Shown: positions 10,776 to 34,546 of the stretch, one piece after another
How positions within the stretch are numbered: the stretch's first letter is position 1
Layout: each line of letters begins with the position of its first letter
Assembly: GCA_947034885.2 (NCBI GenBank)
Contig: OX344749.2
Span: 9,811,501-9,875,500, forward strand
From: Thuidium tamariscinum
Lineage: Eukaryota; Streptophyta; Bryopsida; Hypnales; Thuidiaceae
DNA length: 64,000 nt
Direction: 5' to 3'
Notes under the pieces: model-generated
The model's input: only the letters and a program-made list of their open reading frames with translations
The model's database searches: none
What the model was told of the DNA's origin: nothing
Position numbers and translations under genes: made by a program

Positions 10776-10795
10776 CAGGGTTGTCATAACGGACG
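10776..10795 (+). repeat. Left terminal inverted repeat of the giant element
   Basis: CAGGGTTGTCATA followed by ACGGACG. The first 13 bases match the complement of the right end at 34,534-34,546 exactly; the GGACG word follows at a slightly different spacing in the two ends. I noticed no other copy of the 13-mer in the window. Confidence 0.75.
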
Positions 10796-10927
10796 AGTCA
10801 GGGTCACCGGATGTCACGGACGGGCGAGGCGGACCGGACGGACGGACGGTCCGGACGTACCGGACGGCTCTATTTTTCAAAGTAGTGGGATTTTTTTGGG
10901 TTGACACGTCAGCTTAGAAAGCGAGAT

Positions 10928-11155
10928 CCAGGGCGCGGACGTCTCCGTCAGGGCGCGGACTTCATCATGTCACCGTCAGGGCGCGGACGCGTACAGGTAG
11001 GGTGCGGACTTCACCGTCAGCGTCAGGGCGCGGACTCGAACAAGTAGGGCGTGGACTTCAGCGTGTACGTCAAGGCGCAGACGCGTATAGGTAGGGCGCG
11101 GACTTCACCGTTAGTGTTAGGGCGCGGACCTCAACATAAGGGTCAGGGCTCGGAC
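10928..11155 (+). repeat. Left subterminal GGGCGCGGAC array
   Basis: About ten copies of GGGCGCGGAC or one-base variants (GGGTGCGGAC, GGGCGTGGAC, GGGCTCGGAC), mostly preceded by CA or GTCA, spaced roughly 20-30 bp apart. Most variants are CpG to TpG or CpA changes, as expected from decay of methylated CpG. The same motif recurs beside every gene promoter of the element and, inverted, at its right end, so it is probably a binding site for an element-encoded protein. Confidence 0.75.
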
Positions 11156-12451
11156 GGTTAGTGAGTTATGGGTTCTATAGGGTAGAAGGTCCGTAACCCC
11201 TTAAGGACTTTGTCAATTGTGAAGTGGTCAAACTTCTTATGTGAACTAATTTTAGCCTTTTGAGTATGGGTAGTGTTCAAACAACAATCTGAAATTTATT
11301 CTAATTCAAGCTCTTAATTCTATATTACCATGAGAAATTACAGTTTGTTTTGTACCAATTTTCTAATTGTTATAATTTTTGGTGCAAAAAATGAATGTAA
11401 ATGAGTACAAATAGAAAAATCAATCTAAATTATTTGAAATAACCTTGGAAAGTAAAAGTAGTAATAAGGCTTAGCATGCAAAATTTTCAATTGGTTATTT
11501 TATTTTGTACAATGGGGTACCAATAAAAAAAAAGTCTTTTTCGAATTCGCAGTGAGAATTTTTTTGGTATGGCCAACTTTGAAAGCCTCCCGAGAGCTCA
11601 AAAAGTAGTATTTAACCACAAAATTTTTACCACAACTTAACCTTGAAGTTAGTTATATGTATGACAAATTTCAAGGCCAAAAGATTTAGGAAAGAAAAGT
11701 TATTCAAAATCTATCAAGATTGGTAGTGGTAAGAAACATTTCACTACTTTCAACTTTGACACCTTTTTAAGGAGTAAGGATTGAGTCTTGGTTCTTTTGC
11801 CGTGAAATTTTTGTCATGGAATAATCTCTATGTTCTTAATATGTATAAAAAATTTCAAGGTAAAAAAAGGTTTGGTGAAGAAGATATTTGAAATCTCTCA
11901 ACAGGTGTAGTTCTCTGAAACTTTTGACAATTACCAATTTTGACACCCTACCAAGGGCTAAAAAATTGGTTTCTTACCATGAATTCTTTTTGGCTGCATT
12001 TATCTCTATGTTCATAATATATGCTAGAAATTTCAAGTTAAAATTGTCGCAGTCCAGAAATATCAGGTAAGTAAAATAGGAAGATAGTATATAGAGTAAG
12101 CTCAATTTTTCAAAATTTTAGGGTTAGATATGGCGAAAAGAAGACAATTAGGGTCTTCTTCCCTTGGGATCCGTTTGAACCGGATTGACCAAGGTGAATT
12201 TCCGGTCTATGGGCATAAGTTTCCGGATCCGGATTCCTCAGTATCCGGAACGGAACTTTCCGGAAGACGAAACTTGGAAAGACGGATCCGATATTGTCAA
12301 GGACGGTTCCGGTATACCTAAAGACGGATCCGAGGTAGTTCCGGATGGTCGGCACCTACGGGTCTACGCCGTCGACCTACGGAAACTAGCGTAACGGCCG
12401 GAGAACGTCGCGCCGTTCCGAGGGGAACTGGGAACGCAGGGTACCGACTGG

Positions 12452-12459
12452 TATATAAA
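12452..12459 (+). promoter_or_regulatory. TATA box of the nested element gene
   Basis: TATATAAA in a GC-rich setting, about 180 bp before the ATG at 12,634, with a pyrimidine-rich stretch (CCCCTTCTCTCCACTTC) just downstream where transcription would begin. Confidence 0.55.
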
Positions 12460-12633
12460 CCCCTTCTCTCCACTTCATTTTTCCTTTTCGATTTGGCAAA
12501 TCGAGGTACGGCTTGTGTGCAGGTTTTGGAGCGCGTATAGAGAGAGAAAGAGTGGTGAGCAGTAGAGATCGGTTCCGGGTTTAGTTCAGGGTCAGTGCCG
12601 ACCGCACCGACAAGTTCCGACTCGGGCGGAGAG

Positions 12634-14618
12634 ATGGCGAGTTCCTCCAATCCGAAGCAGGCGGTAGTGACGGCCAAGGCAATTTCGCCAGTCATCCCTT
12701 CCGATCCGCAGCATCGGAAGGAGTTAGAAGATGATCTAGTCTTCCTAGGGTATCATGGGTTGATCCGGCGCCCTTAGAGTGTGAAGAGTGACGAGATAGT
12801 ACAGGAAATCCTCTCAGGAGTTCCGAATCAGTACGAACTCACAGTGAGGGGTAGACCGAGTGCCTGGACGTCGGATATCTGGGCGAATGTATACGGTTTT
12901 GATAAAACCGGATTAGGTCTAGCTCCCCGGACGGACAAGTTTGGTGTTAACAAGTTCCGGAATCCGCCCCACCCTAAGGACGGATACTCAGTTCCGGATT
13001 GCACCAACGACCGGCATAGACGGATGTTGGAATTCTTGATTCCCATCCTCTATCCGGAAAAGCCTACCCGTGTCACCGTGACGGTAGCAAACACCATCTT
13101 CGGGTGTTTTGAGAAGCGGATAGTCAACTGGGGTATAGTCCTCCAGTGGGTAGTTAACCGGCTAGCCGAGCATGTGGGACGGGAGAAGACCAGTACTATC
13201 AGCGGCTATCTCTTCCACCTGTACCACCACAATGATGTGCTGAGTGGCCCGGAACTCCTCCGCTATGAGACAGGAATTCAGATCCTCAAGTACGGCTTGA
13301 CGGATGAGTTGGAGAAGGAGTCGGAGGACCCGGAGGACGAGCAGATGGACGAGGACCCGGAAGAGCAGAAGCCGGAACGGAAGCCGGAATGGAAGAAGTC
13401 CACAACGCCGGATAAGAGAGGACACCCAGACCCGGATCCACCCGGATCAACCCTGGGGAAGAAGAAGCGGAACCACTTCGACACCATCATTCGTCACGCC
13501 ATGATGGCGCACGCAGACAACAACCAATATGAGGCGATACTCGAGCAGATTGTCACGAAGCTGGGCGCGGTGAAGATCGAAGACATCCGGAAATCCTCGA
13601 CCGTCTTCCGACTCAAGAGGTGTTGCGGAAGAAGGACGAGGAGATCCGGAAGTGGGAGGACGAGGCCCGGAACCAGACGGATCAAACTCGATAGGCGGAA
13701 GATCTGGCCCGGATAGTTGAAGAGGGACGACGGAAGGCAGAAGAAGAGCGGAATGGGCTCCAGAGCACGGTGACGTACCTGGAGAGTGATCTCAGTGTCG
13801 CCAACGGGAAGATCGTGGAGGCCACCTCCTTAGTTCGGAACCTGCAGGAGTTGGTGGCCCAGTCGGCGGATACAATGATCAGGGCGAAACTGTTTTCCGC
13901 CCGGCTGATGACGGAAGGGCACGTCACCGGATCGAAAGTCATCACCATCTTGGTGGATTACCAGGCCAAGATGGAAGGGGTACTGAAGGAGATGAGGGCC
14001 TTAATTGGGACTCTCAATCCGGAGTTAGGGGAAGGACTGTCGAGCTTGCTCAACCAGCAGGTGTTTACGGACTTCAGCCCCGGAGCGCAAGGACGGATGT
14101 CGACGGATCGGAAGCTACTCGGAAACTTGCCGGTCGTGAAGAACCTCGGCGAGCTCGGATCGGATCCGAATGCGGCCAGACCGTCCAACACACCTATGGA
14201 TCCGCAAGAGAAGAGGGCGTCACCACGGCTCGACCTTGAGATCCGGATGAAGGCCCTAGCGAATCCGGCCAGGGAGAATCCGGAGAAGTTCGCCCACATG
14301 AACGAGCCAAATAGGGTTCCGGGCAAGGATCCGCGCAACAAGACAGTCATTTTGGATGACTCGGACAGGGAAGACAATCCGCCCTTCACCATCCGTGATG
14401 AAGTTAGGGAGCAGGGCGGATTTCAGGAAGTGGAGCATTCAGAAAGCTCCGAGGCGGATTCGGAAGAGACCTCGACGGAAGACAACGGAACGCCGCCGGT
14501 TCCGATTCAGAAGAGGCAGACCCGATCCGCCACCAAGAAGGCTCCCCCTCCCAAGGCAACAACGCGGAGAAGTTCAGTTCCGCCCGTGGGCGCGACATCG
14601 AAGCGAGCACGTAAGTAG
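12634..14618 (+). pseudogene. Broken gag-like / plant-transposon-like protein gene of nested element
   Basis: One long coding region interrupted three times. It starts at the ATG at 12,634 and meets an in-frame TAG at 12,775-12,777 (same frame continues directly to 13,600). It loses one base around 13,590-13,610, where the reading passes into the frame that holds a highly charged coiled-coil segment, then meets a TAG near 13,691 before running open to 14,618. The first half is globular, with repeated Trp, Tyr and His positions (WTSDIWANVYGF; YLFHLYHHNDVL), followed by an acidic PED/EEQ/PER stretch, a coiled coil, and a basic Lys/Arg-rich C-terminus (KKAPPPKATTRR). This layout resembles gag-like or 'putative plant transposon' proteins of plant retroelements, but I cannot assign a family. 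Codons are dominated by CCG-GAN and TCC-GGA because the element-wide motif runs through the coding region. Confidence 0.6.
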
Positions 14619-15760
14619 GATAGGGTTGAGTAGTTAGGTAGGATTTTGAGATTTTGGGACGGAAGTTTCCTGGACGGATTTCCCGGATGTGGGCCCCGAT
14701 CCGGAACTTTAGGGACAACTGGCCGGACCTTTCCGGATAATCCGGTTGGGCTCCGATTGGTTGTTCCGGATTTTCTTTTGCCTTGCTGGCATTCCGTTTC
14801 TGTTTTTAGGCTTTGACTTTCATTGTGTTTTTGGGCTTTTAAGGGGCAGGCAAGTTAGTTGGCCTGTCATTCCCTCCTAGTGCATATTCTATTGTATTTT
14901 CATTCCCTTCTTTAATTTGAGCCGGCGGATGGACATTCTAGCTCTGACTTGTGTTTGAGTCTCTTCTGTGTGTGTGTTTGTTGAAGTGTTGAGAGGTAAG
15001 AGGGAAGGGTGAGGAGGAATCCGGATTCTGAGGCACTTGAAATCCGAACTGAGTGACCAACTTCCGAGAGTTAGGATCTTGAATCGTGAGTTTGAGCGTG
15101 GAGCCTTTAATTCACCGGAACGGTGATCCGATGTGAGTCTAGGAGTGACAAGGAGGAGGTTCCGGAACCGCAGGGGCGGATCCGTGCGGAGTTAAGCAGC
15201 CGCCAGAGGAAAGTTCCGTCCATCGGAAGGTCTGCCATCCACTGAGTCGATCCAAAGAACTAGGAAAATACGTCCTTTCGGGTCTGGGTTTTTTTGAATC
15301 TGTCGTTGTAGTAAGGGCGAGTGAAGTAGTCCTGAGTGACCTGCTAACCGGATTGGCCTAGAGCTATCCGGGAAGTTGTGAGGATCCGGATCCGGCCCTA
15401 ATACAACACCGGATATATTTTGGTGTTTTCGTGTGTTTTGTTTGAGAGGAGAGAGTGTGAGGTTTACGAGTGGTAAGTCCCTACCCCTCTAAAGATCAAG
15501 AAAGGACTCCCTGAGGGTAAAACAGGGGTATCAAAAACCGATTATTGATTGACGGAACCAGATTCCGGATTGAGACGGATCCGGGTGAAGGTGAAATCCG
15601 GATCTAAGGAAGGAATCCGGTCATAGTTGAGAGACGGATTCGGAAAGAAAAGACGGATCCGGAAAAAGAGTTCGGAAGACAAGTTGGTATTCCGGATTAA
15701 GAGTAGTAACTTGGGGTGTTTTGATCCGAGAAACCTAGAAACCGGAAAACGCAACTATTA
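14619..15760. repeat. TCCGGA/CCGGAT motif-rich 3' region of nested element
   Basis: Non-coding sequence with dozens of TCCGGA, CCGGAT and GATCCGGA words, densest at 15,360-15,410 and 15,540-15,740. The corresponding 5' region (12,150-12,440) is equally rich. No frame is sustained. The motif is CpG-containing yet well preserved, suggesting a young insertion or one that escaped methylation-driven decay. Confidence 0.55.
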
Positions 15761-16748
15761 GTAACGTCTGGAATCTCCTGGGACGATATTCCGTGTCATA
15801 TTATCACGTTTGGGTGTGATAAAGGTGCTTTCTGCTAGACTGCGCGTACGACAAAAATGAATTACCAAAGAAAAGATATACAAAATCTCACAACATGTGT
15901 GGTTATGAGATTAAGTTCTTGAGTCCTTAGTATAGTATTATTTTGTAGAGCCAAGTTTGTCACGAATGTAGAAACTCAACCTCACAACTACACATGTTGA
16001 GAAATTTTGAATATCTTTTTTGGGGTATGTGTTTTGAACTTGAAATTTGGAACATCAACATAAAGTTGATTTTATTCAAATAATTCCATGTTAAATAGAC
16101 AAATTTTCAGCCCTTGGGAGGGTGTCAAAGTTGACAATAGTAAAAAAATTCTCATAACCACACATCTTGTCAGATTTTGTATATCTTTTTTTGGGTAGTT
16201 CATTTTAACTTGAAACTTGTAGCATATATTATGAATATAGAGATGACTTCACCAAAAAAAATTCATGGTAAGAAACTTATTTTTTAGCCCTTGGTAGGGT
16301 GTCAAAATTGGTAATTGTCAAAAGTTTCAGACAACTACACATGTTGAGAGATTTCAAATATCTTCTTCACCAAACCTTTTTTTACCTTGAAATTTTTTAT
16401 ACATATTAAGAACATAGAGATTATTCCATGACAAAAATTTCACGGCAAAAGAACCAAGACTCAATCCTTACTCCTTAAAAAGGTGTCAAAGTTGAAAGTA
16501 GTGAAATGTTTCTTACCACTACCCATCTTGGTAGATTTTGAATAACTTTTCTTTCCTAAATCTTTTGGCCTTGAAATTTGTCATGCATATAATTAACTTC
16601 AAGGTTATGCTGTGGTAAAAATTTTGTGGTTAAATACTACTTTTTGAGCTCTCGGGAGGCTTTCAAAGTTGGCCATACCAAAAAAATTCTCACTGCGAAT
16701 TCGAAAAAGACTTTTTTTTATTGGTACCCCATTGTACAAAATAAAATA

Positions 16749-17205
16749 GCCACATCACAAACCTTGAAATTAAATTCAACTATCAAACCCAATTCATCAT
16801 TGAAGTCAAAGTGCCTCTCATATTAAATAGAATTAGCCTACAAAATATATTACATGATTGCACTCACCAATGTTTCCAACATGCACGTCAAAATGTCAAA
16901 TACAAAAACATTATAGACATATTAGTAGGCTTCAATCTATATGATAACCAAAAGTATTTATAAAATTCATGCATTGCAATTTGCAAAGTACAATAACAAT
17001 ACAATGAATCTATACTTCCAAAATATGCCCACTTTCTCATCGGTTAGGGAAAAGACATTCCTTTGGCTTCTCGTCCATCTTTCTTTTAATTGCTACAATT
17101 ATCTTCAACTCTTAAAGACACAAGATCTACCATTGGTGCAACTCAGTTATTGAAACGACTTGACCTACGAACTTCTTGGGCACTAGGATCCACTACATTA
17201 GCATC
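16749..17205. other. Spacer downstream of the transposase gene
   Basis: AT-rich, no coding signal. It lies between the foldback element and the 3' end of the minus-strand transposase gene, so it probably includes that gene's 3' untranslated region. No polyadenylation signal could be assigned with confidence. Confidence 0.4.
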
Positions 17206-20200
17206 TCAAACAACAACATCATCATCCTGTGGTGCCTCATCGCAGTTTGGATCATCCTCGTCATTGGCATCTTCGTTGCTGTCATATTCATCTTCTGCTT
17301 CACCACTATCTGTGGTCCAATGTCCCTCAATCTCTGAGTTTTCATTTCGAAGCTCTACAATAGTTTGACCTTGACTACGTTTGCGCTTGAACCTCTTATG
17401 TCGCAGTGCATTGGGGTCTTCTCCATCAGAATTTATAGTGGGCCCACTTGAAACTCGAGGAACAACAAATGCTGGGGTTGACCTACTAGGTCCTAGTACG
17501 TATGTATCCAAGAACGGTTCTACCACCCTATTTGAGTCTCTTGCCCCTATTCCAAGGAGTGGACGATGAGTAGGCCTTGACAATGATGCTTCTCCAATAT
17601 GTGGACCTTCTCTTCCTCCACGACCTCTAGTCCCTCCACGGCCTCCAATCCCTCCTCGGCCTCCAGCCCTTCCACGGCCTCCCATCCTTCCACGACCTTG
17701 TTGATATTGACCCACTTCATGATGAATGGAGGGCCGAGGTGCCGTAGGTGGTCTACCACCAACAGTACCACAAGAAATGTTTTGAGGAGTCATATCAACA
17801 TTTCTCATAGAGCCTAACCCTTCTTCAAAAGGTCTTTGGATGGCATTGGAAGTTGCTGGTGAAGATGGGTCTAGGGAATGTGGCGCTTGGCTAGTTCGGT
17901 CAGAACGAACTGGAGTGGGTTCACGCGCAAGGTCTTCTGGTGCGTCAATAAATGCAAAAACATCATTGTAGTCTACATGCTCTGGATCAAAACGCCTTCT
18001 CACATTACTTGCCGATTGATTCCTTCCAATGGGGCGTGCCATTCTTGCATTTCTAACGTTTCTGTCATGGTGTCGTTCAACAACTGTATTGCTACGAACT
18101 GATGCCCCCATTCTTGTAGGCCCTGTATTGCCATCTTGATTGTGAGAAGATCCTCCACAATTTGGATTTGCAGTCCTCCCTATATTTCCGCCACCATTTC
18201 CATTTCCGCCGCGATTTTCATTTTCACCGCCACTTCCATTATTGCTTCCATTTCCATTTCCGCTGCCATTTCCTGGAGGGAGGTCGTCATCATTGTCGTT
18301 GTTGTTATGGGAGATACCATCATCCACGTCATCGTCATTTGGATTGGCGGCCTCTGAAGAAGATGACAAAGCTTGGACTTCTGCGACCCCTTCATTTTGA
18401 GGAAGAGGAGGTGAAGGACTGCGACGAGGATTGGGTACCCAAGGACCCCAACGACCACCAACGGGTTCTTCCTCTCCATCGTCAGCATCTCCATAGTAGT
18501 TTCTCGCTTCCTCGAGGTGATCGGCACCTCGCCTCCAAAGATCTGGGTTCGCCGGATACTCTTGAGGTGCTTCATTGGCTTCCACACCAACCTCTTCTTC
18601 TTCCTCTGCTTGCATTGCGTCAAATTCCCGATTGCGTTCATTCAAAGGGATCGGACCAAGGGCATCTGGATCAGAATCCTCCGAGTACATATTTGCATCA
18701 TACCAACGAACTGGATCGGCTCCTGGTCTTTCTTGAAGTACACGGCTATTAGTATAAATATATACCAATGACTCTACCTTCGTGGGGGCTAATCAATTTC
18801 AGACCCTATTGTGAACAAAGGAATACATACTCCAATTCCTTTCACAAGAGCTGGCCAAACACGTGAGGGATAGAATACGCACGGCAATTTTTGAAAGAGC
18901 CCGATCTCCAACCCTATGCCACCATTGGTGGGGAAGCATTTGTGTCACACGGATGTTGGGTGTCTCAGCTGCACTATACGGTCCACTATCCTCCTCAAAT
19001 TGAGTTAATTCCGCCAATACATCATCAAAAGTGACACCCACTACATCTTCCATTTTGTGGATGACTCTGTACAATGCACGTAGCGCTGTTCCGTCTACCC
19101 TGAGCGCCACGTTATCCAAGAGGTATGGATTCAAAAGGGCCGCGGCGTAGTGTGTATCTTCAAAAATCATGTCCCATCTTTCATTGAAAGATCTCTCCAA
19201 AGTGACTACTATGTCATCTCGTAAGCTAAAAGGTGGTTCTCTCAAAGAATACACGTGTCCTCGCAAGTTGTGCATCATGAGCCACGCCCGACCCATGGCT
19301 GGTTCTCGTCCATCAAACACACGCAAAGCCTTCAATACGTCTTCAATCATGTACACGTAATTCACACATCGTTGCCAAAAGGCCACATCTTCAATGGTTC
19401 TTCTGACATTACGTGAAGCGATAGTTGCCTGTGGTCCATTCTGTTCGTTTCGTAGGGTATCATAGTAATTTATAGCACGGGGGTGGTTATTCAACCGCTC
19501 CAAGACTCTTCTGAGTTTCACTACTCGCTGTAACATGAGGAAATTACAAGCAAAGCGAGTTTCGCTAGGCACTACGAGTTGTAGGTTTGGACTCAACTCA
19601 CGAAAAACCGACATGGTTGCATGATGGTTTCGAATGTATTGGCACAATCTTCTTGCCCTGTCAATTAAATCGGAAAATTCCTGAATCTTGGCCCAATCTT
19701 CCAACATCAAATCCAATGCATGTGCCATGCAGCCTTGCGCAAATATGTGCGGATAGGTTAGAGTAATGTCTCTCAATGCCCCAAGCATGTTTGCTGCATT
19801 ATCTGTGCAAACTTGTGTCACATATTTGGCACCCACCTTCTCAATGTAAACTTTCATTTGGTCTGCTATATAGCGCATGGTTTTCTTTTGTGAGGTAGTG
19901 TCAATTGACCCCAAAAATACATCACCTACGGGGCATGACATCATCACATTCATGAGGGGCCTCCGATTGACATCATCCCAACCATCGATGCATATCGTCA
20001 CCCCGTAGTGCTTGACAGCAAAACCAACCTTCTCTTCAATCTTCTTCTCGATTTGCAACCTCCTCGGTTTAATTAAATTAGTCCTGAACTGATGGTAAGA
20101 AGGTGGACTATATTCAAACCTCGCCACTGAGGTTGCCCTCACAGCCTCAATGAAGGCTGGATGCCTTGCCACATTAAATGGCACATTTGCTTCATAGAAA

Positions 20201-20715
20201 AAACTTGCCCACTTGTCATCCAACTCCTTCCTCTTTGCAATGTTGAATGCGTCCGCCATGCGTTGCTGACGTAATGATCCCGATCTTGTAGAATTTGAAC
20301 CTGCAAGACTATTGGACGTTTGTAGAATTTCATTTCCTTCAGGAACGTTTGCCCGTTCTTCCGCTCTCCTACCAGTGACCCCATCCGTCACCTCATTTTC
20401 AGTGGCTTCGCTTGAACTTGCAAGCGGAGTTGTTCTAGTCGGTCCACTTTGAATTGGTTCTCCTTCACACATGTTCCCGGCATCCATTCGTAGTGGGACA
20501 AAACCTGTACAATTGGCAAACCTATGTCGCACTTCACGAGGCATATTTGGACAAATTGACCTCTCCGATTTCGTGCCATATCCGAAATGTGCAAAAGCAC
20601 GCTCACGTTTGTAACTGAAGGTCCCAGTACAGAAAACACAAGTCACTTTAGTCCCATTCGCCGTAAAGTTCAGCCACAGTTCCCAGTCCTTGGTCTGCCT
20701 CCTCTGACTTGCCAT
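17206..20715 (-). pseudogene. hAT transposase with long C-terminal extension, two nonsense codons
   Basis: Start chosen at the ATG at 20,715 (MASQRRQ); upstream in-frame codons lack an ATG. In order: a BED-type zinc finger (Cys26, Cys29, His43, Cys55); a DUF659-like core with the first two catalytic Asp in CIDGWDD and CTDNAANM; and the hAT C-terminal dimerisation region with the third acidic residue in SSCERNWS. Translation stops at TGA 18,801-18,799 and again at TGA 18,795-18,793, two codons later. The same frame then continues through LAPTKVESLVYIYTN, which is the normal continuation of hAT dimerisation domains. Both TGA sit where CGA (Arg) would be expected. After the conserved part comes an extension of about 500 residues: acidic, then Gly/Asn-rich (18,180-18,290), then an RGG-box run (17,607-17,700), a basic KRFKRKR patch and an acidic tail. 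This extension is unusual for the family. The gene would supply transposase for the giant element; as read here it is inactive unless read through. Confidence 0.85.
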
Positions 20716-20968: not shown

Positions 20969-20976
20969 TTTATATA
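20969..20976 (-). promoter_or_regulatory. TATA box of the transposase gene
   Basis: TATATAAA on the minus strand, about 255 bp before the ATG at 20,715 and directly downstream (in transcription direction) of the GGGCGCGGAC array at 20,985-21,580. The RING and kinase genes of the element have the same arrangement. Confidence 0.65.
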
Positions 20977-20984: not shown

Positions 20985-21580
20985 AGGTAGGGGCGCGGAC
21001 TTCACCGGTGTCCTTGTCAACAGGGCGCGGACTTCAGTCCCAAAGTCTATGCACACTTGAATCCCTGCCGTCAGGGCGCGGACTTCAGGGCGGGGACGGG
21101 AGAACAGGGCGCGGACTTCACGGTGGGGACGGGAAGTCAGGGCGCGGACTTGAGGGCGGTGAACTTTAACAACGTTCAAAATGCACACCTGAATCCCTAG
21201 CGGTCTGGGCGGGGACGGGAAGACAGGGCGCGGACTTGAGGGCACGGACTCGAAGTCAGGGCGCGGACTTCAGGGCGGAGAATTTGTGAACTTTGACAAC
21301 CTCCAAAATGCACACCTGAATCCTTGGCGTCAAGGCGGGGACGGGAAGTCAAGGCGGGGACTTTAGGGCGGAGACGGGGAGTCAAGGCGCGGACTTGAGG
21401 GCGGTGAACTTTGACAACGTTCAAAATGCACACCTGAATCCCTAGCGGTCTGGGCGGGGACAGGAAGACAGGGTGTGGACTTCAGGGCGCGGACTCGAAG
21501 TCAGGGCGCGGACTTCAGGGCACGGACTTCAAGTCAGGGCGTGGACTTCAGGGCGCGGACTCAAAGTCAGGGCGCGGACG
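20985..21580 (+). repeat. GGGCGCGGAC array at the transposase promoter
   Basis: More than twenty copies of GGGCGCGGAC and variants (GGGCGGGGAC, AGGCGGGGAC), often as CAGGGCGCGGACTTCAGGGCG, at intervals of roughly 15-40 bp. A longer block that includes AAAATGCACACCTGAATCCC recurs three times (near 21,178, 21,307 and 21,424). Placed just upstream of the transposase TATA box, so likely a promoter or operator region also recognised by the transposase. Confidence 0.75.
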
Positions 21581-23035: not shown

Positions 23036-23583
23036 TTTTTTAAACTTCCAAGTTCAATTTCTTAGATTCACGTAGAAGGTAGTCATTTCTAAATAAAAGG
23101 TACAAGAGATTCTTCTTTTGAATGAGAACTTTACATTATTTTGGATTCACATGAAAAGATTCACTTTCTTGAATAATTGATAGAATGCATTTTTTAAATG
23201 AACAAATGAGTTTCATTTCTTCAAATCCATTATTCATAAGCAAAGATTCTTTTTTCTGCATAATAACTACAAGGGTTTTTGTGGGGAAATGGAAAATTAT
23301 AAGTTATATTTTGTTCTTAATGTGAAAGGATCCATTTTTATAAATACTTGTTACAATGGATTCTTCCTTAATAAAACGTACAACTTAAATTGAAGTAGAA
23401 AGGTTGTAAATGGAATCCACAATTAGAAATAATTGCTACAATAAAATCTTTTTTACATGAACTTAGAAGACATATTTTTCAGATGCATGATATAGGTTCT
23501 TTTCCGAAGGTTTAGAATACATTGATTTGTTTTTTAATTCAACCCTAGAACCATCTGAAATAAAGTCAAACAATCCAAACTCA
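23036..23583. other. Spacer, degenerate continuation of the 172-bp repeat
   Basis: AT-rich, with weak echoes of the 172-bp unit (ACAAGAGATTC, TTTTGGATTCAC). No gene. Confidence 0.4.
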
Positions 23584-23625
23584 AACCCTAAACCCTAATA
23601 CTCCAAACCCTAAACCCTACACTCC
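23584..23625 (+). repeat. Interstitial plant-type telomeric repeat
   Basis: AACCCTAAACCCTAA, then a short interruption and CAAACCCTAAACCCTACAC. Four to five near-perfect CCCTAAA units. Such short runs occur at sites of telomere-mediated repair and as telo-boxes in plant promoters. Confidence 0.7.
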
Positions 23626-23639
23626 TAAAATCTTTGAAC

Positions 23640-24520
23640 CCAAGAAGCCAAGGAGTTGGAGGCTTGAACTTCACTGCATTGGCGCTACTCAGGGCGGGGA
23701 TGTCAGGTGAGGGCGCGGACTTCAAGGTGTGGACTCCAGCACAGGGCGCGGACTCCAGGGTGCGGACCATTCTTGGTGCACGAACGTCCATGCAAAGAAA
23801 AAGAGGTTGACCTCCCGCATGGGATCCCTCCTTGCTCCTATTTATTGCTCTTGGAAGATGGTGTCCCTCCTTTTCATGGAAACCGGGAACCATTAAATTT
23901 AGTCATGCCGTCTTTTACATTCCTTGTAGTGATGGAGAGACAAGAACGCTTTCTCTTACCAATGTTTTCGTTACATTGGCTGTGTCATGGCGCGGACTTA
24001 ATGTCAGGGCGTGGACTTGAAGTCAGGGCGCGGAGGCCAGGGCGCGGACGCCAGGGCATACAGCACAAGAGGGAGGACTTTGAAATGCGATCGGGCATGA
24101 GAACCAGGGAAGCCAAGGAGTTGGAGGTTTGCATTGGCGCTACTCAGGGCATGGACGTCAGGTGAGGGCGCAGACGTCAGGGCGCGGACTCCAGCGCAGG
24201 GCGCGGACCATTCTTGGTGCGCAAACGTGCATGCACTGCAAATGAGGTTGACTTCCCGCATGGGATCCCTCCTTGCTCCTATTTATTGCTCTTACAAGAT
24301 TGTGTCCCTCCTTTCATGGAAACCAGGAACCATTAAATTCAGTCATGCCTTCTTTTAGATTCTTTATAGTGATGGAGAGACAAGAAAGCTTTCTCTCACC
24401 AATGTTTTCGTGACATTGGCTTATCAGGGCGTGGACGCAAGGCGCGGACTTGAGGGCGGACAATTCTAATACGTGGCGCGGACTTCATGTCAGGGCGCGG
24501 ACGCCAGGGCATACAGCACA
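23640..24520 (+). repeat. Duplicated block carrying GGGCGCGGAC arrays
   Basis: Two diverged direct copies, about 440-465 bp apart, share GCCAAGGAGTTGGAGG (23,647 and 24,112), GGGATCCCTCCTTGCTCC (23,821 and 24,263) and GGAACCATTAAATT (23,880s and 24,320s). Each holds one or two short arrays of GGGCGCGGAC (23,690-23,770; 23,990-24,055; 24,145-24,212; 24,424-24,508). No open frame follows, so this may be a promoter whose gene has been lost, or a spare copy of the array. Confidence 0.65.
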
Positions 24521-24539
24521 AGAGGGAGGACTTTGAAAT

Positions 24540-24765: not shown

Positions 24766-24999
24766 GAACCTTATTTGTGTCCCCAAGAAGAAACTAGTAC
24801 TTTGAACTAAAAAGAATTTTTAGATTTAAAAAAAGAAGTCTAAATTCTTCTATTTAGCAAATGTTCCGGATATTTTGAGGAAATATTTAGGGAATATAGA
24901 GAAAATGTAGTGTACTAGATACAAGGGTAAAACTTAATTTGTTTAAAATGAAAGAAGTAGTAGAGATTTAAACAAAAAATTGTAGACCTCCAGTACGCC

Positions 25000-27070
25000 A
25001 CTTCAATTTTTCATCTCATCATCCCCTTTCCAATTTTTTATGCATCGAAAGCAAAACTATCTTATCCGAAGTCAATGCCATCTTTTTATTTCTTAATTCA
25101 ATTCCTTGTCCATTTCTCTTGCTTCATTAATTAGCAAAACTCTTATATTTTTGGCCTCTAATGCAAAAATTCTTTTATGCGAAGTCATTGTCATTCCTTT
25201 TTGTTGAATTATTTAGCCCCCTTGTTTTGTGGCATCATTCCTTATTTATTGAATCGTTTTATCTCCTTTTTTTTTACTTCATTCCTAAAACTCTTGCATT
25301 CAAATTGAATGCCAATTTTTTTTTACGTCATTCGTTTTCCTATTTATTTCCCATTAATTAGCAAAGCTCTCATTCCCCAACTCTATGCCATCCTTTTTTT
25401 GTTGCATCATTCTATCTTTTTTTGTCACCATTTTCTTTTCAGATTTTCATTTCTATTGGTCTTCATTAATTTCTAGAACTCTTTTATCGTAATTAGCAAT
25501 ACCAATGTTTATTAGTTGAATCATTGCATTGCCTTTTCTAAATGTATTTGGCTTCATTGATTAGCAAAGCTCTTTCATCCAATGTCAATGGGAATTTTTT
25601 TTGTACCACCAGCTAACCAACCTCTTTACTATTTTTTATTATGTTTTTTACTTTATTGTTTAGCAAAACTTGTCCATGTAACTCAATACCAATTTTTTTT
25701 CGCCCTTATTCTCGTTCCTTATTTTTTAATCCTGAACCGAAATCTTTTCCGTCTTAATAAATTGTAATTTTTTTTCTCGTCAGTCCCTTTCCTATTTTTT
25801 TTATTCATTAGAAAAACTCTTCCATCCCAACTCAATAATAAATGTTTTTTATGGTAAGAAATGGAAGTCTTTCCATTCGCTTTCCATTTCTCGTTTATTA
25901 AAATAGGTAATCAAACACAATGTTTGTTTCATATCTCTTTCACATTTGTTTGCTTTTATTAAGAACATCTAAAATGCACTTTCACTCCAACTAAATGACG
26001 TCTTTTTTCCTTACCTAATTTTTTTCACAGATTGGAAATGAATTCCACTCCAATTCAATGACTTTTCATTTCATTCCGTACATGTTTTTATGATTGAATC
26101 CTATTCCAAGTCAATGACATTTTACTTCATCAATTTCAAGTCAATGAAAATTGATTTGTTCGCCACTAAATTTTTTTATATTGGGTAACCATTGATTATT
26201 AAATATGTACCTATTTCCATGCCAATTTAATCATCCCTACTTACTTTTCCCATTTTTTTGTACTTTGGATAACAATACACTTCCATTGTAGGTCTGGCAA
26301 TTACGTGATAGGAAATTGAAGGATGAGTGTTTGGGATTATAGTCAATCACTTTAACTTGTAAGTGAAGTTTAGAATCATTCCCAAATAAAATTTATGAAA
26401 GCTTGGGTCTCTCTACCCCTCTTTTGGGTGCATTTATTTTGAAAGCACTTACATTCCAAGTCAATGCCTTTTCAACTTTTCTTTTGTTGGATTCATTTTT
26501 TTTTCATTTTTTTTGGCTTCATTAGCATAATTGTTCCATCTCAAGTTATAGAAGAAGTAAATGGCACTACTCTTGTCTTCCTAACTTTTTTCCAACCGAA
26601 TGCCATTCATTTTTCTTTGATCATTACCTTCCTAATTCTTCGAAATTCATTAGCCACATGTTCCATCCCAACAGAAGACGATTTATTTCCTAAACTCTTT
26701 ATAGTTTTATTTTATTGATTTGGAAGATTATTTTGTCCCAATTGAATGCCATTTTTTGTGGATATCATTCCCTCCCTAATTGTTTTTGGCAGCATTTGCA
26801 ACATTATCCCATGCCATCCCAATGCACTTTATTTATTGTATATCATTCCCCCCTATTTTTTTGGGGCTTGATTAGCGAAATTGTTCCATCTCACCAGAAT
26901 GCCCTCTATTTTTTGGTGGTATCTCAAATGAATGCCATTTACTTGTTTTCTATCATTAGCAACATTAGAAATGAGTTTTTTTCCAATATAATGGCATTTG
27001 TTGTCCTTCCCTAATTTTATTCATTCATGGAAAAATGGAAATGAATCATAGTACAATACTCCAATTCAAT
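25000..27070 (+). repeat. Degenerate tandem array, pyrimidine-rich
   Basis: A loosely repeated unit, with words such as TTAGCAAAACTCTTCCATCC, CTCAATGCCATT, CATTCCTTTTCC and TTCATTAATTA in rotating order at about 60-100 bp intervals, rich in T runs. The complement of the same words fills 32,250-33,900. No gene. Confidence 0.6.
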
Positions 27071-27390
27071 GACATTTCATTTTAGGATATAATTTTTGTA
27101 TATGTATGATGTTGTTTCAAAAGAATATGTGCAAAAAAAAAACGAAGTGATTTTGGCCTGGATTTTGGGCTAAATAATATATATTTCATAAGCGTCATGG
27201 AATACATAGTTGGAAAAGTATATGACGAGGTTACTATGACCATGACACCATCTAAAAATGCATGTGCCAATATCTAATATAACGAATAATATTTATTGCC
27301 AAGATCAAAATTCTATAAGCCTATATTAAGCTAGGACCCTAAGTCTTCTATGAAAACATAAGTTCACTAGCTAGATAGTAGAAACTTCAC
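27071..27390. other. Short spacer after the RING gene
   Basis: AT-rich, no coding signal; probably the 3' untranslated region of the minus-strand RING gene. Confidence 0.35.
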
Positions 27391-29676
27391 TTAGTCTATG
27401 TCCATTGCACTGCCACTTGGGCCAGCCTCGTTGTCATGTGTCCATGCAATGACGGGAAGGTCTTCGTCCGAGCCTAAACGAAGTCTACGAATTGCGGATC
27501 GAGTTCTCCGCGCTGGTCCATCTTCCTCCAATACAGCCCTCATGATCTGTGATTGTTTGAGGCTCTCAAGACATTGGCGAGTTCGAGGGCTATGCTGTTC
27601 AAGCAAGAAATCCATCCCTTCATGTCGAAAGGTTTCTCGCCACTCTGACTCCTCTAGTTGAACTAGTTCAGCAGGGTCAGGCATGTCAATGTCGTCCACC
27701 ATACGAATCCCATCGTTGTTAGTGATACGAACTCCATCCCTATTCCAAAACCACTGTTTAGGATGAGGTCCAAATTGAAAGTTCTCAAAAACCTCGTCCC
27801 AATGCCCATTGAAGCACTGATAGAAGAAATTCCGTCGTCCTTGGCTATACTTGTCCTTCATTGGAATCAAGTGTTGACACACCTCCACTATTTGAGTTGG
27901 ATTTTTTTCCCAACCCCATTCGGCAGAAAGGTTTTGTTTATCCAAGGAATGGACCTTCAATTTTCAACTCCACACCAAGTCAGTTCCCCACTTCTGAGCA
28001 TGATCAGGGGCATTTTCAGCATTATATTCCCAATGTGGTGGCATGTATGAAACTAATCCAAACAAATCATACAAGCGCTCATGGAAAAGAGCCTTGCACA
28101 AGGAACACCGTCGACGAACAACCATCAAGCTAATCAAACAAAATGGATGGTACAAGTGTTCGCACGTGCCTAGGTGCATTCCACCTTCAGGGCCAAATGG
28201 ATTTAGACAAATGGGACACGTAGTACCATCATACACGAAGCTTGAAGGATTTGGCCACAATAATAGTGGATTGCCGTTCTGGTCGAGGGAAGAGCCAACT
28301 TCATTCTTAAAATCCCAATGGTGTTTGGACCAATCGATGATTGTTGTTCCACCACCAATGTCTTTGGTCACCATTTCATCCATGTTGAAATGATCATCCA
28401 CGAGGGCCCACGATGTCAATCCAAAAACCCTCTCTTCATTGTGTGCGCCATAATTGTTGTCGATTTTTTGGAATTCTGACACCATTTGCTGAGTCCTGTC
28501 AACAGAAAAGACGCATGCCATCTTCCACTGGTAATATTGCTCCATCAACGCTTTCAATTGTTTTTTCAATATCAAATTGTTTGCAAGCGCGTCCGTCAAT
28601 TGAGTGCTTTGGTCAATTGGCATTGCTTGACCTGCATTTGTGGGTAATTCTCCAAATGACAGTACATCATCTTGAGTACCCTGTGTTGCACCAACTTCAA
28701 CATGTTGCACTGGAATTTCATCATTGATTGGAGGCCCTTGCGCTCCCCCTCGTGGATCCTGACCATCATTGGCCAATGTGGCTGCTTCAAGAGCATGCCG
28801 CAGCGCCTCTATCTCACGTTGTTGTTCACTTATAATATTGTTCTTCTCTTTGAGTTCATCCCTCAATTTATTAACATCTTCATACAAAAAATGCAGATGC
28901 GCATTGCTCTCTTCCACTTCAGTCCTCAAACTCTGAATTCAATCTGCAGCAGCTGTAACATCAACAATTCCTATTGTTGGTTCGTCAGTAGCTGGCACCT
29001 GTCCCTCCACAACATTTTCTTGTACACCCTCTTCAGTTGCACGCTCAGCCCTCCTCTTTTTAAGCCGTAGATTTGTTCTATAGCTGAGTGCATGTGGCAC
29101 ATGAGATCCATCCGAGTCGTTATCTGTAGTAGAGTCCTCAGTGTCATGTAATGGTGGTGCTTCAACTTGTGTAGTTGTTTTACCCAGTCCACCTTGCGGG
29201 TACCTTTTTACCCCCCTTGGAATGAATCCATTTGCTGGGGTAGGAATGTTGACTTTGTCCCCCATTGTCTTCAAAGTTGACCAGTCCACTCTCTTGTTCA
29301 ACTTCAGTTCCGCATGTACCCCTCGTGCAATGAAGAGATGCACTTCATTGCGTTTGACGATAGGGACATCATACAACGCCTGGTACACTTCGATGCACCG
29401 TTTTGTGAACTCTTCATCAATGCAATGTTTTAAATTTGCCTTGTGGAAGCGTCGGTGATAGTTGTGTCGCTCTTCTGGGAAGACCTTGTCAATGTGGCAC
29501 CACTCGATGTAATTGGCACAGTTTTCGTAAGTCCATGGGTCAGGCACGTCTTCCCACCCTTTGAATGCAAGCTTTGCGGGATTACGTAAAACATGCAACT
29601 GCTTACGATGTTTGTTTCCTGGTCGTGGTCGGGTCTTGTCTCGTTCCTCCTTCCTTGGTCTTGTCGGTGTAGCCAT
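27391..29676 (-). pseudogene. RING-H2 finger protein gene of the giant element, two nonsense codons
   Basis: A single frame from the ATG at 29,676 to 27,391, interrupted only by TGA at 28,941-28,939 and TGA at 27,966-27,964; about 760 codons. The N-terminal third is basic (KEERDKTRPRPGNKHRKQ) with a Trp/His/Tyr-rich globular region. A coiled coil of roughly 45 residues follows the first stop. The middle is weakly conserved. Near the end of the second segment lies a RING-H2 finger: CPIC, then CEHLYHPFC with the two His, then CSLC. RING-H2 domains recruit ubiquitin-conjugating enzymes, so an E3 ligase role is likely for the intact ancestor. Neighbours: divergent from the kinase gene, with which it shares a 0.7-kb promoter region. 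I do not recognise the full-length family. Both TGA lie where CGA would keep the frame open, and I see no frameshift. Confidence 0.75.
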
Positions 29677-29779
29677 TTTCACAGGAAAATGTGAAAACCT
29701 CCCACGTGGCAATCAAAAAGACCCCGCACGACGCTCACAACCAACTCAATGAAGAGGTGGAAGGCTGAGAGTATGCAGG

Positions 29780-30145
29780 GCGGGGACAAGTGAGGCGGGG
29801 ACGGGTTTATATAGGGGCAGTCGGGGACGTCAGGGCGCGGACGCCATTGCTGTTAGGGCAGGGACTCCATCGATGTCGGGGCGCGGACGTCTCTGTCAGG
29901 GCGGGGACTCCATCGATGTCGGGGCGTGGACGTCTCCGTCAGGGCGGGGACTCCTTCGTTGTTGGGGCGCGGACGTCTCCGTCAGGGCGAGGACTCCTTC
30001 GTTGTCGGGGCGCGGACGTCTCCGTCAGGGCGGGGACTCCTTCGTTGTCGGGGCGCGGACGTCTCCATCAAGGCGGGGACGCGTGTATCAGGGCGGGGAC
30101 TCCACGTGTTGGGGCGGGAATGCGATGGGGATGGGGCGGGGACGT
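29780..30145 (+). repeat. 43-bp tandem array in the bidirectional promoter
   Basis: Units begin at 29,871, 29,914, 29,957, 30,000 and 30,043, exactly 43 bp apart. Each unit contains GGGCGCGGACGTCTCCGTCA and then GGGCGGGGACTCC, so the ten-base core recurs about every 21-22 bp, or two helical turns. The array lies between the TATA boxes of the divergent RING and kinase genes. Confidence 0.9.
29806..29813 (-). promoter_or_regulatory. TATA box of the RING gene
   Basis: TATATAAA on the minus strand, 130 bp before the ATG at 29,676, with the 43-bp repeat array immediately upstream. Confidence 0.65.
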
Positions 30146-30157
30146 GCGCGGGGGGAC

Positions 30158-30166
30158 TATATAAAA
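30158..30166 (+). promoter_or_regulatory. TATA box of the cargo kinase gene
   Basis: TATATAAAA on the plus strand, about 200 bp before the ATG at 30,363, at the right edge of the GGGCGCGGAC array. Confidence 0.65.
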
Positions 30167-30362
30167 GCGAGTCCCCGCCCTCATTCCTTTGCCAAGTCCA
30201 CACCCTATGCCTCACATGCTAGTTCGTTCCCACGGCCTGTGCGAGTGAGTTTGGTGGGTGCTGGGCTTGGCCTACATATGAGACCTGGTTTTTTTGAATT
30301 TTTTTGAAACTTTCTTGCTTCGGGATTGATACGGAGGCCCATTGGAACTTTTTTTTTCCATT

Positions 30363-31972
30363 ATGGCAGGTGAAGGGAGTGGATCGGTGGACAAACGTCT
30401 TATCTTTGTAGACTTGGATGATGTCGGTGAGACGGTAATTCCATGTACAAACACGTTGATGGCCTCAGGTTCATCAAATCCTTCCTCATCAGGCCAGAAA
30501 AAACGCAAGAAAGAACAAAATCCCCAAATACTTGGACATGAATTCATAGTCGAAGGGAGAAAAATAGCTGTGGTGTTCTACACTCGTTGAAGTACAAATA
30601 TGTTGAACAGGGAGTATGTGTTGCACGACGAAGAAGGGTACCACAAACTGACGAGGGACCTGCGAAGGGAGCTGGAGTCAAAGTTTGAAGAATCAGAAGA
30701 ATTCAACAACTTCTCAGATTATTGGTTGCACCAAGAGTGGCTGGATAAACAAGTGGTCGCCTTGACAACCAATATAGTGTGTAATTGGTGTTATCACACG
30801 GGTAAGAAAGAAGATGGTAGCAACTGGGACACGGAGGACAGAGAGATGGTTACAAAAGTGAAGGAGATTCAAACGTTTGCTCAACGATATTCTTCTTCAC
30901 GTAGAAAAAAGCAAGCACCATGGAAAGTGACAATTGAAGAAGCGATAACGGCTCATTGCGTGAGTGGAACATTCAAGTGGCTAGAAAGTTCCGTGAAAGT
31001 CATCCCCATGCCAGAACAAATTGCGATTGGGTCGTATGGGACCGTGAGGAAGGTGATCTTTACGAAACTTGAGAGCATTCCTAGTTGGATATTTTTTGTT
31101 GGGAAGAGCTTGAAGACTAAGAATGAAAAGGAGAAACGCCAAGCAATCATCAATGAGGCAGGAGGGTGTCCAGTGAATCATCCTGGCATCATTCGAATTG
31201 CGTACCTCCACCCTAAAACAATGGAAGGCTACACACTATGGTGGAATGGAGGATCTCTAATTTCTTTCTTGTCCAAATGCAATGCGAAAGTGAGTGAAGC
31301 ATTGGATGTGGATCAGATTGAGAGTGATTTTTCTACGGGGCTGACGCAAGATGAACTTTCATGGGTTGCAACGTATCGGAGAAATCGAGTGAAATTGGCA
31401 TTGTCATTACTTGTCATTGTGGGGAAATGCCATGATGCGCAGTACATGCACAACGACATATCTCCATCCAATGTTTTGCTCCATTTTGATCCTTGGGAAC
31501 GAAATAGGGTGTACATAGGGATATGTGATTGGGGACTTTCTAGCCGAGTTGTGGAAAAGGAGCCATCAAGGTATGGCTATCCCAGTATGGAGATCCTTGC
31601 GAAGGAGAAAAAAAAGCGAAGGTTTGCGGCCCCAGAATTGTTTTATGTATACGGAGAGCAGGGTTCATCAAACTCCATTGAGGCCATGCAAAAAATGCAT
31701 TTGTATTCTATGGCAGCTGATGCATATGCGGTGGGATGGATAGCTTCTGCAATTCGGAATGAAGAGTGGGACCCTAAATACTTCACAACGAAAAACCCAG
31801 GCAGTATCAGAATTTCAGGATCAAATTGGGAAGCCTCGTAAAAGAAGATGTGCGTGAAAGGACAACAGTGCCAGATGTTCTAGACAAATTGAAGAAGGCC
31901 CCCACTGTTGGACGATGCCGGATTGTTGTTATCGTACATAGTATTTTGTTTTTAATATTTTTTGTAGTTTAG
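30363..31972 (+). pseudogene. Atypical protein kinase gene of the giant element, one nonsense codon and one frameshift
   Basis: Starts at the ATG at 30,363 (MAGEGSGS). An in-frame TGA at 30,588-30,590 is followed by continuous frame to about 31,795. There one base appears lost in an A5 run: the next frame carries the expected end of the kinase C-lobe (VKEDVRERTTVPDVLDKLKK) and stops at 31,972. Intact length would be near 536 residues. Kinase motifs: glycine loop GSYGTVRKV, a candidate ATP-binding Lys in FFVGKSLK, catalytic loop MHNDISPSNVLL (HND instead of HRD, catalytic Asp and Asn kept), CDWG instead of DFG, AAPE, and ADAYAVGW in place of DVWSxG. The key residues of an active enzyme are therefore present in atypical form. 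The 190-residue N-terminal part is not recognised. Divergent from the RING gene. Family not assigned. Confidence 0.75.
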
Positions 31973-32249
31973 CATATATTTCAGGCATAGAAGAAAATCA
32001 TCCTCATAGAGGAGCCTATGTACCTACTTGGCAATTGCCAAACAGCTTGAATATATATTAAATCGGATGTGTAATTGTGTACCATACTCAAAATCCCAAA
32101 ATATATTAATATGCCCTTTCATTGGTCTTTCTTCATGGCATTTTTTATGACTTCTATGAATTGATGATAAAACGTAAATGAAAACTATGGATGCAATAGT
32201 TTGGTATAAAAATGCATACACTTAATTTTTTCCACTATGCCTATGTTTT
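31973..32249. other. Spacer after the cargo kinase gene
   Basis: AT-rich, no coding signal; probably 3' untranslated and flanking sequence. Confidence 0.35.
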
Positions 32250-34300
32250 AGGAGTTAATGAAGCCCCCCCAAAGAAGGGAAAATGAATGATCCAACAAAA
32301 AAATGAATGACATTGAAGTAGAATGGAAGAATTTTATGAATGAAGAGAAACCAAAAAAAGGAAAAGGGAAGATGGAACAAAAAAAATAATAGCTTTGACT
32401 TGGGATGGAAGAACTTTAGGAAATATTACAAAAATAAAATAGGGAAGGGAATGATTCAACAAATAAAGAGGAACTATGAGTTGGAATAAAGTGGTCCTGC
32501 TAATTAATGACGGTAAACAAAAAAGAAAAAGGAATGATTCAACAAAAAAGAGAACAACAACTATGAGTTGGGAATTTGGGATGGGAGAATTGTAGGAATG
32601 AAGCCAAAAAAATAGGGAAAGAAAATATGGAACAGAAAATGAACATTTTGCTTTCAATTGGGATGGAAGGGTTTTAGAAAGGAAGCCCCCCAAAAGGAAA
32701 GGGAATGATGGAATTACAGAAAAATGGCTTTGAATTAGGATGGGAGAGTCTTGTTAATTAATGAAGCAAAACAGAAACGAAGATGGAATTATTCAAGAAA
32801 AACTAAAAGAAAAACTATGAGTTGGGATGGTAGAGTTTTAGGAATGAAGCCAAAAAAATAAGAGAGAGAATGACCTAAACCAAAAAGAATGGCATGGAGT
32901 TGGGATAAGAAGAGCTTTGCTAATTAATAAAAAACATAGGAAACGAAATGATGGAACAAATACGAAATGGCATTCAGTTCAAATGGGAGAGTTCTAGGAA
33001 TGAAGCCAAAAAAAAGGGAAAGGGAATGATTCATCCAAAAAAATGACAATGATTTGGAATGAAAGAGTTTTAGGATTGAAGGAAAAAAATAGAAAAACTT
33101 TGTTAATTAATGAGGAGAGAAAAATAGAAAAAGGAATGATTTAACAAAAAACAAATGGCATTGACTTGGGATGGGAGAGTTTTGCTTATGATGCAAAAGA
33201 AATTGGAAGGAAATGATGGAATAATAAATTAAAGTTGTTTGGGTGTTAGAGTGAAATGATTTAACACTTTAAATTTTTTTGGAATGGTGGAATGACTAAG
33301 GATATTAGGATATGGAAATGGTTTGGGTGCTACAGTGATGTGATCTAACATTAAAAAAACTTGGAATGGTTTGGATGTTAATGTGATATGAATGATAAAC
33401 AAAAATAAGGAGGGAAATAAAATGTTGTTGGGTTTTGAAAATCCGTTTAAGCTTTATGTTAACAAAATGTTGTTGATAAAAGTAAACTCAATGAAAGAGG
33501 GATAAGTCCACAAAAAATAAGGAGTCAAAGTGATTTCAACTAACAACCAACACAAATTACCATTGAGTTGGGATAGAGTTGGGATAGAGTTGGGATGCCA
33601 CAAAAAATAAATGGAATTGAGTTCGGATGAAAGAGTTTTGCTAATGATCAACCAAAAATAAATGGCCTTTGGTTGGAATGGAACAATTTTGGTAATCACA
33701 TGAAATAAAATAGGGAAAAGAAATCATTCTACACTAGACAAATGGCATTGAATTAAAATCGAAGAGTTTTGGTAATGATGCGAAGATATAGGAAAGGGAA
33801 TGATTCCGCCAATAAAAATAATCGCAGAGACTTGGAATGGAAGTCTGCTTCAAAAGTCAATGTCCAAAAGGGGAGGTAACGTGACCCAAGCTTTTGAAAA
33901 GCGTACCAATTTATTTTAGGAGTAATATGATCTAACATTAAAAGAAATAAGGGATGGAAGAGTGCTTTGGAATATAGAAATGGCTTAGGTGTTAGAGTGA
34001 TATGATCTAACACCCAAAAAATATATGGAATGCTGGAGTGATTTGGATATGGAAATGGTTTGCATGTTATAGTGAGGTAATTTACCTCCTAAAAATATAA
34101 AATGGTGTAGTGATTTGGATATGAAAATGGTTTGGATGTTAGAATGATGTAATTTCACACCTAAAAAAAAATGGAATGGTGGAGTAATTTGGATATGAAA
34201 ATGGTTTGGGTATTAGACTAATTAGAGTGATATGATGTAACATTAAAAAAAATATAAAGTGTTGGAGTGACTAGGAAAGTGGGAATATGGAATATAAAAA
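32250..34300 (-). repeat. Degenerate tandem array, inverse of 25,000-27,070
   Basis: 32,250-33,900 repeats purine-rich words (GGGATGGAAGAGTTTTAGG, AATGAAGCCAAAAAAA, GGGAAAGGGAATGATTCAAC, AATGGCATTGA) that are the complement of the words at 25,000-27,070. From 33,240 a second unit of about 75-80 bp appears (TTGGATATGGAAATGGTTTGG and GTTAGAGTGATATGATCTAAC), best seen at 33,910-34,260. The two inverted arrays bracket the RING-kinase module. Confidence 0.6.
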
Positions 34301-34352
34301 GGAAATATGTAGAAGCATATTAATTAATTTTAAGGTGGTCCCAAATCCCGTC

Positions 34353-34410
34353 CGCGCCCTGACTATCGTGTCCCTGCCCTAACGATTGCGTCCGCGCCCT
34401 GCATGTTCTG
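34353..34410 (-). repeat. Right subterminal GGGCGCGGAC motifs, inverted
   Basis: Three complementary copies (GTCCGCGCCCTGA near 34,350; GTCCCTGCCCTAA; GTCCGCGCCCTGC near 34,391). Every other array in the element is in plus orientation; inversion here is what terminal symmetry predicts. Confidence 0.75.
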
Positions 34411-34522
34411 GAATCCACATGGCAGCCACGTGGCCTATTTTTCCATTATCAAAAAGTCAACTATGTGTTGACTCTACCGGACGGGCGAGAGCTCTATCGG
34501 ACGGACGGACGGGCGAACCGGA

Positions 34523-34546
34523 CGTCCGCCAAGTATGACAACCCTG
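34523..34546 (-). repeat. Right terminal inverted repeat of the giant element
   Basis: Ends TATGACAACCCTG, the exact complement of the left end's first 13 bases, preceded by CGTCCGCC. The flank to the right starts GTTGAATG. Confidence 0.75.

Follow-up and report, generated by a model that had tools for sequence, protein, structure and literature searches.

The hAT elements are textbook small, single-gene transposons of a few kilobases, and transposase control at subterminal or promoter sites is familiar both from Ac and from the En/Spm (CACTA) elements, the latter being marked by 3-bp duplications. Members of the superfamily, such as Ac/Ds, hobo and Hermes, are united by 8-bp target-site duplications, short ends starting with CAGGG, and a transposase with the DUF659 and Dimer_Tnp_hAT domains and D, D, E motifs. 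We report that the interval 10776-34546 of a 64,000-nucleotide stretch of the bryopsid Thuidium tamariscinum (assembly GCA_947034885.2, contig OX344749.2, positions 9,811,501 to 9,875,500, placed at C1:9811501-9875500; hereinafter the window) is one member of family A, a giant hAT present in many copies in this 363.2-Mb assembly of 19 contigs. It is like the above elements in its duplications, ends and transposase; unlike them, it is about 17 kb or more in length, holds two further conserved genes, for a RING-H2 protein and a protein kinase, and repeats its subterminal motif at gene promoters. As in En/Spm and Ac, one motif occurs at both ends and promoter, where it is a predicted binding site; unlike En/Spm, there are several internal promoter arrays, a family-specific motif and 8-bp duplications. 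Its terminal inverted repeats measure 13 bp, to be set beside the 5-27 bp given for hATs in a passage of PMC12506042.

Among gene-bearing elements, the Pack-TYPE transposons, including Pack-hAT, are described in a section of PMC8903248 as non-autonomous carriers of captured gene fragments. The T. tamariscinum elements resemble them in having hAT ends around protein-coding sequence, and differ in holding full genes along with a transposase, in a set shared by two families. ToxhAT/ToxTA, the Starships and Teratorn, the last a piggyBac-type element fused with a herpesvirus according to portions of PMC5601938 and PMC10175614, are comparable as large eukaryotic DNA transposons with extra genes. The same passage of PMC12506042 presents ToxhAT as a proposed Tc1/mariner-like element because of its TA duplication, for which reason we dropped it as a hAT precedent, and the Starships as users of a tyrosine recombinase. 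The Starships carry this enzyme (DUF3435) at their 5' edge; none was found among 15 proteins scanned here, the large nested stretches of one family-A copy (E55) lying outside that scan. The available part of a review of giant eukaryotic transposons (PMC6431247) is free of the word hAT, and a giant hAT with RING and kinase genes featured in no title or abstract start among the open-licence matches listed, which is weak evidence of absence.

The case for a mobile three-gene unit is carried by its copies. The exact end occurs 107 + 117 times in the genome (control 1 + 1), and L-type ends with at most one mismatch 94 times (reversed control 0). Pairing neighbouring plus and minus ends within 160 kb among the first 100 of the 224 exact ends yielded 36 pairs: all 14 pairs of 16.9-137 kb contain the family-A kinase, as against none of the 22 that span 0.2-11 kb. 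Reading the flanks at both ends of 21 of the 36 pairs showed perfect 8-bp duplications around 18 of them, with agreement at 7/8 positions in two (E55 and E8) and 5/8 in the window copy; 13 of the 14 large pairs were read, and 11 of these have a perfect duplication. The duplicated 8 bp vary in sequence between copies, with no TA duplication of the Tc1/mariner-like kind. Six large copies read whole (the window copy, E17, E17b, E34, E36 and E55) contain the transposase, RING and kinase genes in a single order.

This linkage extends to the gene matches at large. RING-A lies within 80 kb of 43 of the 49 listed family-A kinase loci, head-to-head in every case and within 4 kb in 35 (chance expectation for the latter about 0.001 per locus); it likewise lies within 90 kb of 38 of the 42 listed transposase loci, in every case upstream (5') and on the transposase's own strand (chance expectation about 0.02 per locus). 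These loci were condensed from 86 kinase rows (25 at 30-31% set aside, leaving 61 family-A rows and 49 loci), 85 RING rows (33 at 44-45% set aside, leaving 52 rows and 47 loci) and 72 transposase rows (42 loci). Because the genome searches score the best candidates only (kinase 84 of 630, RING 84 of 745, transposase 42 of 746), the copy numbers are lower bounds. Shorter elements of 3.8-10 kb (L047, L048 and L049-L050) have the same ends and arrays with none of the three genes matched, and are non-autonomous relatives. Others of 257-289 bp (L009, L010, L013 and L014) have the same 13-bp end and perfect 8-bp duplications around another interior without the motif.

Transposition itself is demonstrated by empty sites for a second family, B, of about 17 kb, which we found nested in two family-A copies, E34 (16,825 bp; B34) and E36 (17,065 bp; B36). 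The two B copies are 98.2 and 98.6% identical over their two longest aligned pieces and entered family-A sequence at different points, with the duplications AAGCAAAG and CATTGTAG; E17 is unoccupied at both points and thus provides exact empty sites. The resulting composites, of 34.6 kb (E34) and 36.6 kb (E36), are themselves flanked by perfect duplications. The left end of family B occurs 322 times with at most one mismatch (control 0), a count of ends and not of full-length copies. B34 has an uninterrupted transposase (1061 aa stop to stop; DUF659 124.5 bits and Dimer_Tnp_hAT 32.9 bits, both above the Pfam cut-off), kinase (553 aa from M) and RING protein (787 aa from M); in B36 the kinase and RING frames are open and the transposase frame is shortened.

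Families A and B hold the same genes at BLASTP protein identities of only 43% (transposase), 30% (kinase) and 29% (RING), and hence the three-gene association is old. The RING proteins of both align in their N-terminal, RING and C-terminal parts and keep all eight ligands, while the kinases of A, B and a further family, C, keep the glycine loop and the HND and DWG motifs. Given a gene set common to A and B, the RING and kinase genes look like long-standing core genes and not chance cargo.

The organization of the window copy is as follows, with motif sites counted at up to two mismatches.

10776..10788, plus strand: left terminal inverted repeat CAGGGTTGTCATA, the L-type end ...ACGGACGAG (exact match search)
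10789..10870, plus strand: CGGACGG-rich block adjoining the left end
10930..11155, plus strand: left subterminal array of AGGGCGCGGAC, 10 sites
17146..20715, minus strand: transposase gene, about 1190 codons, with a zinc-finger-like N-terminus, DUF659 and hAT dimerisation region
20970..20976, minus strand: TATA box of the transposase gene, 20 bp from the array
20990..21579, plus strand: transposase promoter motif array, 22 sites
23691..24502, plus strand: additional 16-site motif array, found in each of the six family-A copies read and adjoining no gene
27394..29676, minus strand: RING-H2 gene, 761 codons in copy E17
29777..30206: divergent promoter array common to RING and kinase, 17 sites, with TATA boxes at 29807 (minus) for RING and 30158 (plus) for kinase
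30363..31938, plus strand: protein kinase gene, 526 codons in E17
34350..34400, minus strand: right subterminal array, 3 sites
34470..34533, minus strand: CGGACGG-rich block adjoining the right end
34534..34546, minus strand: right terminal inverted repeat, the R-type end (exact match search)

Several of these features had already been called in a first-pass annotation made from the letters alone, and they hold up: the exact 13-bp inverted ends, the subterminal motifs facing opposite ways, the hAT transposase gene inside, the two further genes of the same promoter design (here traced to the motif array between RING and kinase) and flanks agreeing at 5 of 8 positions. The two ends are the sole exact matches to the repeat inside the window; nevertheless, as the window has 1067 exact 13-mer inverted pairs 0.2-40 kb apart, many of them probably stemming from its internal repeats, 13-bp ends alone are little proof, and we dropped any claim for their significance by themselves. 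Past the 13 bp, the end regions align with a score of 37, above all 300 of 300 shuffles (maximum 29).

All 69 window sites of AGGGCGCGGAC fall inside the element, whereas 20 shuffles of it gave 2.3 sites on average and never more than 5. Of the 69, 68 make up the five arrays above and one is isolated at 18646. The sites run in plus orientation at the left end and minus at the right, and recur upstream of the transposase and between RING and kinase. The same five arrays are present in all six whole-read copies, E34, E36 and E55 adding weak clusters of 2-4 sites (two mismatches allowed), and in 6/6 copies each of the three genes has a TATA box that coincides with the edge of its array or falls just within it. 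Genome-wide, the motif occurs 2055 times versus 23 for its reversed control. For family B the commonest word at both ends, GGACGGCC, was chosen as the motif: 16 of its 21 exact sites in B34 cluster either at one of the two ends or ahead of the RING gene, and the transposase gene has the left end itself on its upstream side. Families A and B each have a motif of their own, present at both termini and again at their genes' TATA boxes. The extra array has no open reading frame (ORF) or TATA box beside it in any of the six copies; it might direct transcription of a non-coding RNA, or else be a promoter whose gene has disappeared. Interstitial repeats of AAACCCT, the plant telomere unit, adjoin it at 23583-23629.

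All three genes of the window copy are broken. The transposase has three stops (18799-18801, 18793-18795 and 17206-17208), the RING gene in-frame TGA codons at 28939-28941 and 27964-27966, and the kinase gene a stop at 30588-30590 and two frameshifts near its 3' end. The transposase ORF still matches DUF659 (E 2.3e-36, 125.2 bits); Dimer_Tnp_hAT scores 19.6 bits, under its cut-off of 21.4, probably due to the stop cutting the domain. The DGWD, CTDNA and CERNW motifs are present in the transposases of the window, E17b and B34, and the D, D, E catalytic residues appear to be kept, their positions being assigned by analogy with hAT motifs; the transposase profile reaches the Hermes transposase in PDB (E 0.006). 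The RING domain was found, with RING models slightly under their cut-offs, as was the kinase domain. The window copy is hence a non-autonomous relic of an originally autonomous unit of about 17-20 kb, enlarged here by a later insertion; since its ends are intact, it may move in trans. Elsewhere the genes are better preserved: in E17 the RING and kinase frames are open and a single stop interrupts the transposase, and E17b has an open transposase frame.

Relatives in protein databases reach 75% for the transposase (56 proteins), 80% for RING (5) and 84% for the kinase (59). One 75% kinase relative (P0063) is labelled a 'Bacilli bacterium' metagenome-assembled genome (MAG), and its contig is probably eukaryotic contamination. 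Scans of viral contigs with the transposase and kinase alignments and of genome contigs with the kinase alignment returned no relatives, and a PDB sequence search with a kinase relative no match.

Family C was recognized through its kinases, which are 32% identical to those of A and 31% to those of B and free of stops in 16 of 25 listed copies. Arrays of GCGGTCGCC precede both the C kinase and, at a distance of about 6 kb, a divergent RING-like start; neither the ends nor a transposase of this family came into view. Of the 33 listed RING genes at 44-45%, 20 have an 829-aa open frame and 20 are without stops in the match, which suggests a further family of recently active elements. Joining these RING genes with the kinases at 30-31% as one further family was considered and rejected, as their listed places do not coincide.

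We hold with confidence that these copies, duplications and motif arrays represent a three-gene giant hAT, whose transposase would control its genes and whose kinase and RING proteins might assist its movement or expression. Certain observations weigh against this. Of the 100 listed ends, 28 fall in no pair, and, within the range of those ends, a pair encloses 14 of 21 kinase-A loci and leaves out 7 (10 of 26 pieces; 59 of the 61 family-A kinase rows used; two rows on C5, which is beyond the listed ends, excluded). The window copy, with its flanks GGTGGTTG/GTTGAATG, is without a proper 8-bp duplication, as an exception among the pairs read. A TATA-like site with no gene after it stands 57 bp from the right-end array in 6/6 copies; no family C end was found in 3.5 kb beyond the C kinase; and the 30-31% kinases and 44-45% RING genes occupy different places among the matches listed. 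The missing duplication, and the existence of short elements with the same ends, would fit two ends of separate short elements enclosing unrelated host genes, the outcome that the first-pass annotation had named as undoing its reading. Yet the kinase in every large pair, the perfect duplications of 11 of the 13 large pairs read and the six copies with the same genes, order and arrays refute this for family A, and we regard it as highly improbable. The further copies linking ends to genes (14 of 14 large pairs with the kinase, six whole copies with all three genes), the 8-bp duplications and the empty sites, to which that annotation had looked for corroboration, did materialize, the exact empty sites for the two B copies. 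That large copies are segmental duplications might be entertained from the presence of several on one chromosome; with differing flanks, each with its own perfect 8-bp duplication, and with the B copies at different points, this is scarcely credible, and the empty sites refute it for B.

The nature of the two extra genes needs closer weighing. Both domain types are common in hosts. Plant transposons do capture genes (PMC8903248), and the RING and kinase genes could accordingly be host genes carried passively, as Pack-TYPE-like cargo, a view with which the dN/dS of some kinase pairs from decayed copies, close to 1 or higher, is in keeping. Against it, the same pair is found in family B at 29-30% identity, with full-length open frames in B34, the genes have their own promoters with the family motif, and relatives of both are present in other sources. 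Among the three closest copies dN/dS is 0.31-0.36 for the kinase, 0.53-0.62 for RING and 0.30-0.39 for the transposase (codons with gaps or stops skipped); over all 15 pairs the ranges are 0.31-1.33, 0.41-0.63 and 0.30-0.99. As these values rest on small numbers of changes and include post-insertion decay, they lend modest support to selection on all three genes. Passive capture thus strikes us as improbable, and of the 'cargo-bearing giant hAT' originally proposed, the giant multi-copy unit stands whereas the loose cargo gives way to a set shared with family B. A different doubt is whether a host factor binds the arrays, which would then be GC-rich repeats or common promoter elements of the host: arrays at TATA boxes do resemble upstream activating sequences, and for 47 of the first 100 listed motif places the cluster has no exact end within 1 kb. 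Conversely, 93 of the 100 are in clusters of at least five and for 53 the cluster does have an exact end that close, and families A and B have different motifs, each without the other's exact motif. Exact A/B/C motif counts are 27/0/0 in E17, 0/21/0 in B34 and 0/0/9 in an 8-kb C stretch, the three motifs having been picked from the same sequences in which they were counted; with one mismatch they overlap (57/15/6, 0/65/3 and 0/2/18), and it is only at this level that the kinase array of B becomes visible. On balance, we consider host elements an unlikely source of the arrays.

The remaining features of the window lie within or beside the element:

11492..12044: left arm of a 553-bp inverted repeat, part of the element and shared with E55 and E36
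12045..15853: 3.8-kb insertion of later date, with the 5-bp sequence AAAAT on either side, its site empty in E36 and E55
16202..16752: right arm of the 553-bp inverted repeat

An early idea of a nested MULE marked by this repeat (11.5-16.7 kb) was ruled out because E55 and E36 keep the repeat and lack the 3.8-kb block, an insertion in its own right that is flanked by a 5-bp duplication. The ORFs at 12778-14615 are inside this insertion and hence not hAT genes; it holds two overlapping ORFs without a Pfam match. Rfam and tRNA scans gave no match. Outside the element, the window has a palindrome of about 1.06 kb, 97% self-complementary (40538-41593), a 502-bp tandem duplication, 96% identical (45958-46952), a kinase gene (48112-49749) and pieces of a second kinase gene (49716-52345).

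The giant hAT unit thus encodes a transposase of the DDE hAT type together with the RING-H2 protein and the kinase, whose genes are driven head-to-head from one promoter. A DNA-binding protein of the element, most likely the transposase via its N-terminal zinc finger, would bind the family motif: at the ends this would assemble the transposition complex, and at the promoters it would turn the three genes on or off jointly. What the RING protein and the kinase do is less certain. They might act on the transposase or on host repair or silencing factors, and might make the movement of such a long element possible or keep the element expressed; control of these targets seems most likely because both are intracellular regulators kept through long divergence.

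An element that repeats one motif at its ends and at its genes suggests, as far as its sequence can tell, a mobile element running its own small gene network. We lean slightly towards the further view that these families belong to a long-established clade of giant hATs. In it the RING and kinase genes would be obligate to the transposase, and a lineage-private end and promoter code, with ends, promoters and DNA-binding domain co-evolving, would prevent cross-mobilization; such an element would be like a small self-regulating genome without a virus particle. A multi-copy lineage of about 17 kb, with composites of 34.6 and 36.6 kb, shows a superfamily able to keep and spread whole gene modules. 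It also offers a natural system for asking how cut-and-paste transposition handles long DNA, what advantage a kinase and a RING protein give a transposon, and how one code, differing by family, could serve both transposase binding and gene regulation.

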